DNA of 64,000 bases from contig NZ_BPQV01000012.1 of assembly GCF_022179465.1 (NCBI RefSeq), positions 1-64,000 on the forward strand, read 5' to 3'. Position 1 is the stretch's first letter, and each line of letters begins with the position of its first letter. The position numbers were made by a program, and so were the translations under genes. Under the pieces are notes generated by a model that was given only the letters and a program-made list of their open reading frames with translations, was not told the DNA's origin and made no database searches. Below, one piece after another: positions 23,535 to 55,006 of this stretch. The stretch is from Methylobacterium organophilum. Lineage in GTDB: Bacteria; Pseudomonadota; Alphaproteobacteria; Rhizobiales; Beijerinckiaceae.

Positions 23535-24101
23535 CTAGAACGGGATGTCGTCGTCGAGGTCGTAGTTCGGCTTGCCGCCGCCCCCGCCGGACGGGCGGGA
23601 GCCGCCGCCCGAGGAGCGACCACTGCCGCCGCCCCCGCCGTAATCGCCCCCGCGGTCCCCGCCCCGGCCGCCGCCGTACTCGTCGCGGGAGCCGCCGCGG
23701 CTGATCTGGCCGCCGCTCTCTTCCTCGCCGGCGAAGTCGCCGCCGCCGCCGCGGCCGTCGAGGATCGTCATCTCGCCGCGGAAGCGCTGCAGCACGACCT
23801 CGGTCGTGTACTTCTCGACACCGGAATTGTCGGTCCATTTCCGGGTCTGGAGCTGGCCCTCGATATAGACCTTCGACCCCTTGCGCAGATACTGCTCTGC
23901 CACGCGGGCGAGGTTCTCGTTGTAGATCACGACCGAGTGCCACTCGGTCTTCTCCTTGCGCTCGCCCGACATCTTGTCCTTCCAGGACTCGGACGTCGCC
24001 AGCCGCAGGTTCACCACGGGATCGCCGGAGGCGAGGCGCCGCGTCTCGGGATCGCGCCCGAGATTGCCCACCAGGATCACCTTGTTCACGCTGCCCGCCA
24101 T
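23535..24101 (-). CDS. ssb: Single-stranded DNA-binding protein
   Basis: SSB coats single-stranded DNA during replication, repair and recombination. The protein has 188 residues from [19 protein letters not shown]. An OB-fold fills residues 1-110 (including [20 protein letters not shown]). A Gly/Ser/Arg-rich linker follows, and the acidic tip ends in DDDIPF, which binds partner enzymes. The frame is open to 24212, but the ATG at 24101 has GGAGAG upstream and the family N-terminus. The linker is long and very glycine-rich. Upstream is a LexA-type box overlapping a -35/-10 pair, and holC precedes it on the same strand. Confidence 0.97.
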
Positions 24102-24226
24102 CGCACTCTCTCCTCGCGATCCGATCTCACAGGGGCTGCCGCCCGGAGGCCGACTCATGAGCCTTCCCGGGGCCACCGGCAACGGGTCCAAACGGCGAAT
24201 CCACGGGGACAACCGGCAGCCCGTAA

Positions 24227-24255
24227 GTTCTACTTTTGTTCTCGTTCGGCGACAA
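24227..24255 (-). promoter_or_regulatory. ssb promoter with LexA-type SOS box
   Basis: On the minus strand GAAC-AAAAGTA-GAAC (24227-24241) matches the alphaproteobacterial LexA box GAAC-N7-GAAC (equally GTTC-N7-GTTC). It overlaps the -10 of a candidate promoter, TTGTCG-N17-TAGAAC (24250-24255 and 24227-24232). Binding there would block transcription of ssb, whose start codon is about 125 nt downstream. Confidence 0.7.
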
Positions 24256-29751: not shown

Positions 29752-31230
29752 TCACGCCGCCAGGGAGGCGGCCCGCCGCAAATCCTCGACGAAGGTCGCG
29801 TAGGCCATGGCCTTCGCCTCCTCGTCGGGCAGGCGCAGCAGGTAGGAGGGGTGCACGGTGATATAGCCCTCGTAGGGCTTGCCGAACCGGGCCGGCCCGC
29901 GCGCCCGGGTAATCGGGATCTGCTTGCCGGCCAGAGCCAGCACCGCCGTCGCGCCGAGGGCCACCACCAGCTTCGGGGCGACGAAATCGAGTTCCCGGTC
30001 GAGCCACCAGCGATAATGGCTCACCTCCCCCGCCGTCGGCTTCTCGTGGATGCGCCGCCTGCCGCGCAGGGTGAACTTGAAGTGCTTGACCGCATTCGTG
30101 AGATAGCAGGCGTCCCGGTCGATCCCCGCCTCCTCCAGCGCCCGTGACAGGAGCTGACCCGCCGGCCCGACGAAGGGCCGGCCCTGCCGGTCCTCCTGGT
30201 CGCCCGGCTGCTCGCCGACGAAGGCGATGGGCGCGCCGATCGGGCCTTCCCCGAGCACGGCCTGGGTCGCGCCGGGCACCAGGGGCTCCGAGCGCTTGAT
30301 GATCGCGTTCAGGGCCTCCAGCGAATCCGGTTCCTGCCCGGCCATCGCCGCCACGGCCCGGGCGGGCTCGCGCTTCACGGACATCTGCGGCTCCCTCTCG
30401 ATCATCTCCACGGTGCGGCGGCCGGCCTGCCGAACCAGTTCGGGAATCGCCGCGGTCTCGGGCATGTTCCGCCAGTACTTCCTCGGCATCTCCGCGCGCA
30501 TGGCGCGCAGGTTCGTGCGGGCCGGGTTGAAGGTGCTCTCGTAGTAATCGCGCCAGCCCGCTTCGAAGGGGTCGGAGGCGGGTGCATCCTCGCGTCGCCC
30601 CGGCGGCCCGAAGCGGAGCGCCGTGCCGTCCCAATGCGCCGAGCCCTCCGGCGTCAGGATCGCCCAGTCGAGGGCGCGGAAGCGGTCGACGAAGAAGGGA
30701 GCGGCGGTCTCCAGGATGTGATGCTCCGGCTCGAACCAGGCGACGAAGCGCTCGCGGGTGCTCTCCTCCACCCGGCGGAAGCGCAGGAAGGCGTGCATCT
30801 TGTGCAGGTCGCGGCCGATCGCCTTCCGCATCAGGTGGAGGCGATGGATCAGGGGGTCGCTCGCCACCTCCATCAGCGCCCACTCGCCGCGGCTGACGCG
30901 CCAGATCAGGCTGTAGAGCAGCGCGTAGCGCTCGGGATCGCGGTGGGGCACCACCATCGGGATCAGGTCGGCCACGGCCCGGGGCAGGCGCAGGGGCGCC
31001 CCCTCCCCGGCGACGGCGTCCGAGGCGAACAGGCCGGGTGCGGCCGTTTCCTGCCAGACGACCCGCTCCGGCGGCACTGCGGCGGCGATCAGGCTCCGCG
31101 CGCTGGCCCGGAAGCCGGTGAGATCCGCGCCGGGGGACAGGGCGACGGCGTGAAGGGGGCTGCCGCTGCCGCCCTTCCCTCCTCCGCTGAGGGGAAGGGA
31201 GGCGACGGCCCCGTTCCCATGCGCCCCCAT
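29752..31230 (-). CDS. DUF4130 - UdgX fusion, uracil-DNA-binding family
   Basis: A 492-residue two-domain protein. Residues about 30-270 are a DUF4130 domain (MHAFLRFRRVEE, WFEPEHHILETAAPFFVDRF, then a DYYESTFNPARTNLRAMRAE motif). Residues about 305-485 are a UdgX-type uracil-DNA glycosylase domain with GEQPGDQEDRQGRPFVGPAG, TNAVKHFKF and the RRRIHEKP loop. In UdgX the His of that loop (here His395) forms a covalent bond with the abasic sugar after uracil release. The domain normally carries four cysteines for a 4Fe-4S cluster. This protein has only one cysteine in all (Cys375), and the usual CxxC before ATQxVxGEGP reads KRSE. Its ATG overlaps the stop of the radical SAM gene (TGATG), so the two are co-translated. 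Confidence 0.93.
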   Translation of the reverse strand: MGAHGNGAVASLPLSGGGKGGSGSPLHAVALSPGADLTGFRASARSLIAAAVPPERVVWQETAAPGLFASDAVAGEGAPLRLPRAVADLIPMVVPHRDPERYALLYSLIWRVSRGEWALMEVASDPLIHRLHLMRKAIGRDLHKMHAFLRFRRVEESTRERFVAWFEPEHHILETAAPFFVDRFRALDWAILTPEGSAHWDGTALRFGPPGRREDAPASDPFEAGWRDYYESTFNPARTNLRAMRAEMPRKYWRNMPETAAIPELVRQAGRRTVEMIEREPQMSVKREPARAVAAMAGQEPDSLEALNAIIKRSEPLVPGATQAVLGEGPIGAPIAFVGEQPGDQEDRQGRPFVGPAGQLLSRALEEAGIDRDACYLTNAVKHFKFTLRGRRRIHEKPTAGEVSHYRWWLDRELDFVAPKLVVALGATAVLALAGKQIPITRARGPARFGKPYEGYITVHPSYLLRLPDEEAKAMAYATFVEDLRRAASLAA

Positions 31231-32453
31231 CAGAACAGGCTCAGCTGCTCGGCCGGCTCGGCGAGGCGGGCCCGCAGATCGAGGCGGTCGGTCAGGGCGG
31301 TGGGGCGGTGGTCGGCGGCGACGAGGAACGGACGCGCGCGCTTCAGGCCGGAGCTGAGCCGGGCGACGTCGTCGAGGCGCAGGGTCGCGTGCCGGCGCGC
31401 CTTCAGGATGGCGTCGACCGCCCGCGCCCCGAGGCCCGGCACCCGCAGCAGCATCTCCCGATCGGCCCGGTTCACGTCGACGGGGAAGCGGTGCCGGTTC
31501 TTGAGCGCCCAGGCGAGCTTCGGGTCGATGTCGAGGGCGAGCATCCCGTTCTCGGAGGCTTCCGCCACCTCGCCTGCCGAGAAGGCATAGTACCGGATCA
31601 GCCAATCCGCCTGATAGAGCCGGTGCTCCCGTTGCAGCGGGGGCGCCTTCAGGGGCAGGATCGCGGAGCCCGCCGGGATCGGGCTGAAGGCGGAGTAGTA
31701 GACCCGCTTCAGGCCGAGCTGGTCGTAGAGCTGGGCGCTGCGGCCGATAAATGCGGCGTCCGTGGTCGCATCGGCGCCGACGATCACCTGGGTCGATTGC
31801 CCGGCCGGCGAGAAGCGCCGCTTCTCCGCCTTGGCCTGCACGATCCGCTCGCCGATCTGGGCCATGGCGCCCTGGATGGCGGCGCCGTCCTTCTCCGGGG
31901 CGAGGCGGGTCAGGCTCTCCTCCGTCGGCAGCTCGACATTGATCGAGAGCCGGTCGGCATAGAGGCCCGCCTCCTCGATCAGCCACGGGCTCGCCTCGGG
32001 AATCGACTTCAGGTGGATATAGCCGCGGAAGCCGTGCTGCCGGCGCAGTCTCTTCGCGACCAGGGTCAGCATCTCCATGGTGTGGTCCGGCGAGCGGATG
32101 ATGCCGGAGGAGAGGAACAGCCCCTCGATGTAGTTGCGCTTGTAGAATTCCACCGTGAGCGTCACGACCTCGTCCACGCTGAAGCGGGCGCGGGCGACGT
32201 TCGAGGAGCGCCGGTTGATGCAATAGGCGCAGTCGAACAGGCAGTAATTCGTGAGCAGGATCTTCAGGAGCGAGATGCAGCGGCCGTCCGGGGTATAGGC
32301 GTGGCAGATGCCCGCCCCCATGGTCGAGCCGAGCCCGTCCTTGCCGGCCGCGCGCTTCGGCGCCCCCGACGAGGCACAGGAAGCGTCGTATTTGGCGGCA
32401 TCCGCGAGGATGCGCAGCTTGCGCGCGAGCTTTTCGTCCATGGAACGGACCAT
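31230..32453 (-). CDS. Radical SAM protein linked to UdgX, putative DNA repair
   Basis: A 407-residue radical SAM protein of the family described as putative DNA modification/repair radical SAM proteins found with UdgX-type genes. The N-terminus carries KYDASCASSG and GICHAYTPDGRCISL, both family hallmarks. The 4Fe-4S motif follows as CLFDCAYC at residues 71-78. Near residues 345-365 is a helix-hairpin-helix, LLRVPGLGARAVDAILKAR, a non-specific DNA-binding fold. Together these suggest radical chemistry on DNA or a nucleic-acid-bound substrate. It is the first gene of a two-gene unit with the DUF4130-UdgX fusion. The substrate is unknown. The start may be 32453 or the Met at 32441. Confidence 0.92.
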   Translation of the reverse strand: MVRSMDEKLARKLRILADAAKYDASCASSGAPKRAAGKDGLGSTMGAGICHAYTPDGRCISLLKILLTNYCLFDCAYCINRRSSNVARARFSVDEVVTLTVEFYKRNYIEGLFLSSGIIRSPDHTMEMLTLVAKRLRRQHGFRGYIHLKSIPEASPWLIEEAGLYADRLSINVELPTEESLTRLAPEKDGAAIQGAMAQIGERIVQAKAEKRRFSPAGQSTQVIVGADATTDAAFIGRSAQLYDQLGLKRVYYSAFSPIPAGSAILPLKAPPLQREHRLYQADWLIRYYAFSAGEVAEASENGMLALDIDPKLAWALKNRHRFPVDVNRADREMLLRVPGLGARAVDAILKARRHATLRLDDVARLSSGLKRARPFLVAADHRPTALTDRLDLRARLAEPAEQLSLF

Positions 32454-32500
32454 GAACGAGGTGGCCGCTCAGGCAATGCGGCGCGATGCCCTCGTCACCG

Positions 32501-32544: not shown

Positions 32545-32976
32545 TCAGCCCTGGACGAGGGTCTTGTCGAGGGTGATCTCGGCAGTGAGCAGCTTCGAGA
32601 TCGGGCAGCCCTTCTCGGCATTGCCGGCCAGTTCGTCGAACTTGGCCTGATCGATGCCGGGGATCGCCGCCGTGAGGGTTAGGGCCGACTTCGTCACCTT
32701 GAAGCCCTTGCCGTCTTGGACCAGCGTGACGACCGCCTTGGTGTCGAGCGACGTCGCCGTGAGACCGGCTTCCTGGAGCTGGAAGGCGAGCGCCATGGTG
32801 AAGCAGCCCGCATGCGCGGCGGCGATCAGCTCCTCCGGGTTGGTGCCGGGCTCGTTCTCGAAGCGGGTGTTGAAGCCGTAGGGGTTGTCCGAGAGCACGC
32901 CGGACTGGGTCGTGATCTTGCCTTTGCCGGTCTTGCCGTCGCCCTCCCAATGGGCGCTCGCGTGGCGGTCGGTCAT
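32545..32976 (-). CDS. OsmC family peroxidase
   Basis: A 143-residue OsmC/Ohr-family protein, a thiol peroxidase that reduces organic hydroperoxides. The two reactive cysteines are in the right places: NPEELIAAAHAGCFTMAL and EKGCPISKLL. The start at 32976 (MTDRHASAHW) has AGGAG seven bases before it and gives family length. The open frame upstream is Arg/Ser-rich noise and overlaps recX. It ends in a strong terminator. The recX stop lies 73 nt upstream on the same strand. Confidence 0.93.
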   Translation of the reverse strand: MTDRHASAHWEGDGKTGKGKITTQSGVLSDNPYGFNTRFENEPGTNPEELIAAAHAGCFTMALAFQLQEAGLTATSLDTKAVVTLVQDGKGFKVTKSALTLTAAIPGIDQAKFDELAGNAEKGCPISKLLTAEITLDKTLVQG

Positions 32977-33049
32977 GGGCGGTCTCCTGAACATCGGGGT
33001 TCGATCGTGCGCAAGCTGGCGCGCGGGGAGACGAAGTCGAGGGGCCGTC

Positions 33050-33622
33050 TCAGCTTTCCGACTCGGGGTCGGCCTCGATGACGTCGCGCGCGAGGCCGAT
33101 GGAGAATCCCGCTCGGGCCATGGCGGCGAGGTCGCGCGCGCGGCGCTCCGCCCGGTCCGCCGCCGGCCGGAAGGGGCCGAGCCGCCGCCGCCGTGCATAG
33201 GCCCGGGCCGCCTCGAGCTCGTGGTCGCGGCTCTCGCCCGCTTCCTCCTCCTCCGCCGCCAGCGTCGCCGCGATCAGGGTGCGGTCGATGCCCTTGGCGG
33301 CGAGCTTGGCGCCGGCGCCCCGGGTGGAGGTGCCCCGGCGGCGCAGAGTCGCGAGGCGGGCGGCGGCGAAGCGCGCATCGTCCACGAGCCCGGCCCGCAC
33401 GGCCCGGGCCACCGTCTCCTCGATCAGCGGCAGATAGGGCTCCGCCTCCTCGCCCCGGGCCCGGGCGCGCTTGTCGACCCGCCGGCGCAGGGTGCGACGG
33501 AGCATCTCGGAGGAGGCGCCGTAGCGCTCGAGGTAGTGCAGGGCGGCCCGCTCCAGCCACTGCGCCGTCACCGGCGGCGCGGTCCTTGCCTGGGGCTCCG
33601 ATGCAACATTCCGTGAGGTCAT
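33050..33622 (-). CDS. recX: RecX-type regulatory protein
   Basis: A 190-residue RecX-family protein, which modulates RecA filaments. Typical features are an N-terminal ALHYLERYGASSEMLRRTL helix pair, LRRRVDKRA, VARAVRAGLVDDARFAAARL near residue 80, and LAAKGIDRTLI. All are the three-helix repeats of the family. It is not adjacent to recA here. It is divergent from the TAXI-type gene, with 44 nt between them. I found no LexA box in that gap. Confidence 0.88.
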   Translation of the reverse strand: MTSRNVASEPQARTAPPVTAQWLERAALHYLERYGASSEMLRRTLRRRVDKRARARGEEAEPYLPLIEETVARAVRAGLVDDARFAAARLATLRRRGTSTRGAGAKLAAKGIDRTLIAATLAAEEEEAGESRDHELEAARAYARRRRLGPFRPAADRAERRARDLAAMARAGFSIGLARDVIEADPESES

Positions 33623-54965: not shown

Positions 54966-55006
54966 ATGGAACAATCCGTGAACGAAAGCGCCTATCGGGA
55001 GCCGTC

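Follow-up and report, generated by a model that had tools for sequence, protein, structure and literature searches.

The window analysed here, a 64,000-nucleotide stretch of a 5.06 Mb genome that its nearest named relatives mark as Methylobacterium-like, encodes on its reverse strand a radical S-adenosylmethionine (SAM) protein and, in the same unit, a fusion of a DUF4130 domain with a UdgX-type uracil-DNA glycosylase (UDG) domain (Table 1). The UdgX half of this fusion keeps its active-site motifs and lacks all three cysteines that serve as 4Fe-4S cluster ligands in its relatives. Both the gene pair and its connection with SOS are already known; what is new is that this loss of cluster ligands is atypical of the fusion family, has occurred repeatedly and has left the active site in place. 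We found no earlier report of a cysteine-less UdgX among the open-licence articles listed by our searches, and PMC10776899, checked for words denoting the cluster and the fusion, contained no relevant mention. On the evidence set out below, the two genes probably form an SOS-induced repair pair in which the UdgX half excises uracil and cross-links the abasic site without a 4Fe-4S cluster.

The UdgX domain keeps its active site and lacks the cluster ligands

Family hidden Markov models identify both genes as members of a recognised family, in agreement with an earlier reading of the window from its letters alone (hereafter the sequence-only reading): TIGR03914 (297 bits, cut-off 190), TIGR03915 (193.5, cut-off 112) and TIGR03916 (542.6, cut-off 343.5) all match above their curated cut-offs, as do the Pfam models for DUF4130 and UDG. 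Alignment with the characterised UdgX of Mycobacterium smegmatis (MsmUdgX; PDB 6ail, 6ajo), which shares the fold and 46-52% identity over the aligned part, likewise confirmed what had been read from the letters, namely that the uracil pocket GEQPGDQED (residues 339-347) and the RRRIH loop (391-395) are present and that the ligand cysteines are gone. Residues E340 and Q341 correspond in the alignment to E52 and Q53 in MsmUdgX, and His395 to its DNA-binding nucleophile H109 (numbering from PMC10359453). The two proteins have in common motif A (GEQPGD), the NAVKHFKF segment, the K/RRRIH loop and a motif B region. Compared with the KRRIH of UdgX, the window R-loop carries Arg for Lys at its first residue and keeps the nucleophilic His, and motif B (HPSYLLR) fits the pattern HPS(S/A)(L/V)(L/V)R at six of seven places, the exception being the fourth, where it has a Tyr like most cysteine-bearing relatives.

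MsmUdgX is described as a 4Fe-4S protein (PMC10359453) and carries a CxxC motif and a third cysteine in ACRPWL. In the window protein, by contrast, the CxxC site reads KRSE (312-315), in a stretch that falls about two residues short of its aligned counterpart in cysteine-bearing relatives, the third cysteine is replaced by Tyr406 (HYRWWL), and the only cysteine in the 492 residues of the fusion, Cys375, lies away from the ligand sites. The ligand regions thus read ECRGCGLYRDATQ and VVACRPWL in MsmUdgX and KRSEPLVPGATQ and VSHYRWWL in the window. Because the ligand cysteines are absent, we file the domain as a UdgX-type variant and not as a strict UdgX. It further differs from MsmUdgX in being fused to DUF4130 and in having a LexA-type box and a radical SAM gene in its unit. 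The AlphaFold model of the fusion has a mean predicted local distance difference test score (pLDDT) of 89.4, and its 30 best folds are MsmUdgX entries, with template-modelling scores by target length of 0.78-0.90. A fold search with DUF4130 was uninformative for that domain, all 50 listed matches being glycosylases or a glycosylase-bearing polymerase.

Ligand loss among relatives is all-or-none and spares the active site

Ligand states were scored in 213 UdgX-type rows from fetched loci (L numbers; G numbers denote genomes), not all of which are different genes; the distinct aligned rows comprise 125 cysteine-bearing and 63 cysteine-less sequences. Reading frames below 120 bits to the UdgX query were dropped, a filter that excludes family-4 UDGs as well as L028 and L093, which are partial. 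The search for relatives supplied the best 80 of 581, and the sampling is almost wholly from Alphaproteobacteria. All three cysteines are present in 142 of the 213 rows (116 fused, 26 stand-alone) and none in 70 (63 fused, 7 stand-alone), the remaining row being a mixed, frame-shifted sequence (L131). Ligand loss is therefore all-or-none in the sampled rows. The possibility raised by the sequence-only reading that every DUF4130-fused member lacks the cysteines proved false, since 116 of 179 fused rows keep them; in this the window protein departs from the TIGR03914/TIGR03915/TIGR03916 pair as defined in NCBIfam. The same count, together with the seven stand-alone rows without cysteines, also led us to reject DUF4130 fusion as the cause of the loss. 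Among those seven rows, L022/L133 and L023/L134 each represent one gene that was fetched twice, and L135 lies at a contig edge, leaving four real stand-alone cysteine-less genes (G004, G140, G390 and G522); a stand-alone gene in genome G299 was rejected as a contig edge.

The loss follows a recurrent pattern at the ligand sites. The third-cysteine position is occupied by Tyr in 62 of the 63 distinct cysteine-less rows and by Gln in one (L130), and the first-cysteine position is gapped in 60. GEQPGD and the Arg and His of the R-loop are nevertheless kept in all 70 cysteine-less rows, and motif B (HPS/HPA...LR) in 69, with L127 cut by an in-frame stop. Among the 142 cysteine-bearing rows the R-loop His is missing from one, the fused L109 (G580), whose loop aligns as GGPNSR and not as KRRIH, possibly through misalignment. 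The His of NAVKHFK (His383 in the window) is found in 124/124 distinct cysteine-bearing rows and in 61/63 cysteine-less ones (Gln in L130, Arg in L191); it occupies what we take to be a cysteine site in family-4 enzymes, and may be a fourth cluster ligand. His405, next to the substituted Tyr406, is present in 61 of the 63 distinct cysteine-less rows.

Within the genus, median ratios of nonsynonymous to synonymous substitution (dN/dS) are 0.165 for UdgX and 0.275 for DUF4130 (153 pairs from 18 loci; values from our own Nei-Gojobori-type script, uncorrected for codon use). Purifying selection thus acts on the UdgX domain within the genus, and these ratios, with the conservation of the motifs, led us to reject decay as an account of the ligand loss.

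TIGR03914 matches above its cut-off were obtained in all 60 genomes sampled from the genus, in 52 of 199 from the order and in 24 of 289 from the class, and all 24 genus genomes whose ligand sites were inspected are cysteine-less. Among the named carriers without the cysteines, of which several are metagenome assemblies, are Methylobacterium, Microvirga, Enterovirga, one Bosea, Hyphomicrobium, Ancylobacter, Azospirillum, Acidocella, Belnapia and one Sphingomonas; cysteine-bearing carriers include Bradyrhizobium, Mesorhizobium, Sphingomonas, Novosphingobium, Caulobacter, Brevundimonas, Devosia and another Bosea. Three genomes (G414, G449 and G479; L058, L061 and L064) retain the UdgX part without a TIGR03916 match and with DUF4130 missing or broken, G479 holding only a DUF4130 remnant with a TGA.

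The ordinary family-4 UDGs of the class offer a separate observation. In 36 of these (L002, L026, L027, L029-L031 and L268-L297; 30 of them the best-scoring among 86 genomes), the first and third cluster cysteines, at positions we presume from the Thermus enzyme, are absent throughout, and the second and fourth are both kept in 32, both lost in three and reduced to the second in one. This enzyme, too, may have lost its cluster in the class, and a disulfide would fit, because the second and fourth cysteines are retained as a pair.

Phylogenies place three separate ligand losses

The UdgX tree was thinned to 108 UdgX and four family-4 rows, leaving out L127, L093 and L131. With the ligand columns included it implied two changes of state, an Acetobacterales trio (L166, L175, L180) joining the main cysteine-less clade with support 96; without them it implied three, all three forced by starred branches. 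The DUF4130 tree (three changes, three forced), the radical SAM tree (three, two forced) and a joined three-part tree (three changes) agree on this number, and in the joined tree 24 main-clade rows fall on one side of a branch at 100. Approximately unbiased (AU) tests rejected trees in which the main clade and the Acetobacterales trio were held together (p-AU 0.002) or in which all 28 cysteine-less rows were (p-AU 0.0001). These tests and the three-change trees led us to reject a single origin of the loss. All trees were quick searches; the joined tree and the AU tests used a simpler model, for which the tool states 5 wrong rejections among 71 true clades, the clade groups were named after the trees had been seen, and joining the genes assumes that they share one history.

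The trees thus place three separate ligand losses. In each of the three groups the third site has become Tyr, apart from one row with Gln; a single metagenome-assembled Sphingomonas (L191) is the basis for the third loss. We infer that the cysteine-bearing state is ancestral, because MsmUdgX has the cysteines and family 4 is a cluster family (PMC5295032). The four stand-alone cysteine-less genes branch within the main clade, in genomes that lack a TIGR03916 match, and the UdgX domain seems to have outlived its partner there.

A LexA-type box precedes the operon in the window and in relatives

The sequence-only reading had suspected a DNA-damage or DNA-modification pathway, and a direct repeat of the LexA type (GTTCN7GTTC or GAACN7GAAC) at the promoter, both in the window and in relatives, supports the link to damage. 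In 105 of 113 distinct upstream regions of relatives, a set that does not include the window, the repeat lies no more than 150 bases ahead of the radical SAM start: 37/37 cysteine-less, 66/73 cysteine-bearing and 2/3 others. As a control, 17 of 4857 stretches of 165 bases from the same loci contain it. Three of the eight box-less regions (L104, L106 and L109, from the same phylum and another class) show by eye a CTGT-N8-ACAG type. From these data, the operon is probably SOS-induced via LexA.

Published regulation is in keeping with this, if COG4277 is, as we presume, the TIGR03916 protein. SOS control of a UDG operon, COG1573-COG4277, which like the window unit sets a UDG and a second gene under LexA, has been reported in Bacteroidetes by an article that also describes it as known in Verrucomicrobia and Alphaproteobacteria (PMC8565304), and a gene called splB is placed under LexA in alpha- and beta-proteobacteria (PMC3323433); unlike the case described here, the available parts of these two articles do not mention cluster loss. 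An in-window positive control is provided by a LexA-type box at 24227-24241, about 0.1 kb upstream of an ssb gene (23535-24212, reverse strand), a kind of gene listed as an SOS gene (PMC8565304). Another such box, GTTCACGGATTGTTC, lies at 54969-54983 on the reverse strand and is not followed by any clear gene. Among ten reading frames inspected next to strong boxes are gyrA/parC-type, RecO, phage baseplate, transposase and KaiC-type ATPase genes and five unmatched frames; recA and lexA are not among these ten.

The radical SAM partner

Of the two features that the sequence-only reading had assigned to the partner, the CLFDCAYC motif (residues 71-78) stands, and the helix-hairpin-helix finds weak support, since HHH_3 scores 21.1 bits, under its Pfam cut-off of 27. 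The general Pfam Radical_SAM model (PF04055) also falls short at 28.1 bits (cut-off 29.5), the specific TIGR03916 model being matched far above its own cut-off. The CxxxCxxC motif, and six cysteines of the protein in all, do not vary across the 79 cysteine-bearing and 39 cysteine-less pairs, which would allow for a second cluster in the radical SAM protein. Its structural model is fair overall (pLDDT 81.7) and poor near the cysteines (below 50 at residues 44-57 and 69-77), with HydE, viperin and others as best folds, at low similarity.

NCBIfam presumably holds models for spore photoproduct lyase, a radical SAM enzyme, and none appeared among the 14 NCBIfam matches up to E = 1. No structure of that enzyme was found among 50 listed folds, obtained with a model that is poor at the cluster-binding part, or among 20 sequence matches in PDB. 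We therefore doubt this identity for the window protein, although the DUF4130 neighbour has been called SplB-like (PMC3765255). In the same source DUF4130 is a predicted mutagenesis-related enzyme that goes with radical SAM and UDG proteins. In some loci a hemerythrin gene (PF01814) lies between the radical SAM gene and the fusion; four were checked, three of them from named Sphingomonadaceae.

Proposed mechanism and alternatives

In the mechanism that we favour, LexA cleavage would free a single promoter; the radical SAM protein may then act by radical chemistry on a DNA lesion or an intermediate, and DUF4130 would couple it to the fused glycosylase. The UdgX domain, whose cross-linking residues are conserved, would excise uracil or a like base and capture the abasic site via His395. 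The lineage has lost the ligands and would have given up the cluster wholly, iron included, with a shortened CxxC loop and with Tyr406 beside His405 at the former third-cysteine site presumably permitting cluster-free folding. Changing the cluster cysteines of family-4 UDGs costs about 40% of activity, and the cluster aids stability there (PMC5295032), which makes a working cluster-free UdgX plausible. Several observations weigh against this interpretation. A rival published view gives such clusters a redox, damage-finding role (PMC9266487), in which case ligand loss should cost something; the high retention of His383 in cysteine-less rows leaves room for a bound metal; and the partner keeps six cysteines, so that the pathway retains iron-sulfur chemistry. 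As to SOS control, the window box is weak (spacer ATGGTCC), its motif is found 86 times in the genome, compared with 45 times for a reversed control pattern, and the words radical SAM, uracil, glycosylase and photoproduct are absent from the main texts of PMC13384398, on the Caulobacter SOS response, and PMC6473078, on Dinoroseobacter LexA.

Three other explanations were weighed. The ligand loss, the DUF4130 fusion and the pairing with a radical SAM gene would all suit a UdgX half that no longer excises uracil and acts as a cluster-less DNA- or lesion-binding scaffold, only directing the radical SAM protein. This is unlikely, however, given that motif A and the R-loop Arg and His persist in all 70 cysteine-less rows, that UdgX is the more constrained half by dN/dS, and that cysteine-less UdgX occurs in four genomes without TIGR03916, which a mere adaptor does not explain. 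Slightly less likely is a role of the pair in DNA modification, or one directed at another nucleic acid, instead of in repair: the family-wide LexA-type boxes and the published SOS control of the UDG operon (PMC8565304) point to damage, even if the functions of DUF4130 and the radical SAM protein are undefined and the NCBI name reads modification/repair. We consider least likely that the UdgX domain binds a metal or another cluster via His383, His405 and other residues, or borrows a ligand from its partner. Both histidines are indeed kept in 61/63 distinct cysteine-less rows, but His383 is replaced in two of these (Gln in L130, Arg in L191) and in 0/124 cysteine-bearing rows, as expected if its ligand role had lapsed, and the 28 columns that diverge most between the groups hold, besides His405, a single new Cys, His or Asp, namely an Asp at 298 (40/63 cysteine-less rows), which is absent in the window.

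Returning to a UdgX that works without its cluster, we tentatively advance a broader proposal: an active cluster-free cross-linking UDG may have arisen three times within SOS-induced radical SAM operons, all cluster cysteines being lost together and the last becoming Tyr, and the cluster would hence be unneeded in the cell for cross-linking or damage-finding, or its sensing would have passed to the partner. The role of the 4Fe-4S cluster in DNA glycosylases is disputed between loop holding, stability and redox damage search (PMC5295032, PMC9266487), and repeated natural loss with cysteine-bearing sisters and an untouched active site supplies ready-made matched pairs for testing it. A cluster-free UdgX might also be handier for uracil marking or base editors, because iron-sulfur assembly would be unneeded, and the locus draws notice to an apparently SOS-induced radical SAM pathway.

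Gene layout and neighbouring features

Table 1. Features of the radical SAM and DUF4130-UdgX locus in the window, with hemerythrin genes of other loci
Feature	Position	Strand	Remarks
Radical SAM gene (TIGR03916, rSAM_link_UDG)	31230..32453	-	407 aa; translation and family HMM
DUF4130-UdgX fusion gene	29752..31230	-	492 aa; translation and family HMMs
DUF4130 / TIGR03915 domain	30454..31125	-	residues 36-259
UdgX / TIGR03914 domain	29773..30450	-	residues 261-486
Motif A GEQPGD	30199..30216	-	residues 339-344
KRSE	30286..30297	-	residues 312-315; site of lost CxxC cluster ligands
His383 of NAVKHFKF	30082..30084	-	candidate remaining ligand
R-loop RRRIH	30046..30060	-	residues 391-395
His405-Tyr406	30013..30018	-	Tyr406 is the site of the lost third cysteine
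Motif B HPSYLLR	29833..29853	-	residues 460-466
Radical SAM CxxxCxxC	32220..32243	-	Cys71, 75, 78
Further invariant radical SAM protein cysteines	32277..32378	-	Cys26, 50, 59
Helix-hairpin-helix-like segment of radical SAM protein	31392..31484	-	residues 324-354; under Pfam cut-off
LexA-type box GTTCATGGTCCGTTC	32443..32457	-	begins 16 nt before ATG 32441
Hemerythrin genes checked	L174:3463-3972, L182:3410-3952, L191:3468-3962, L100:2227-2772

The ATG of the radical SAM gene at 32453 falls within the LexA-type box, and the true start is likely the ATG at 32441 (MDEKL...), which aligns with the start in relatives. As the sequence-only reading had noted, the ATG of the fusion overlaps the radical SAM stop, the two sharing one base in TGATG, and we infer from this junction that the proteins are made together by co-translation. 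Spacing between the genes is variable: measured from the radical SAM stop to the first aligned DUF4130 residue, it is at most 100 bases in 121 of 166 loci with both genes measured (80/103 cysteine-bearing, 41/63 cysteine-less) and exceeds 400 in 18.

The first 25 or so residues of the fusion are unconserved among relatives and poorly modelled (pLDDT 36 for residues 1-10 and 43 for residues 11-20). The GC-rich segment that encodes them (31150-31227) was not found at the junction in L151, L158, L163 or L166. No inverted repeat was found at the 5' end of the fusion, a 60-nt piece of which has one match in the genome; other members of the genus carry different inserts at the junction. Upstream of the operon lie a RecX-like gene (RecX_HTH2; 33050-33622, reverse strand) and, next to it, an OsmC-like gene (32545-33198).

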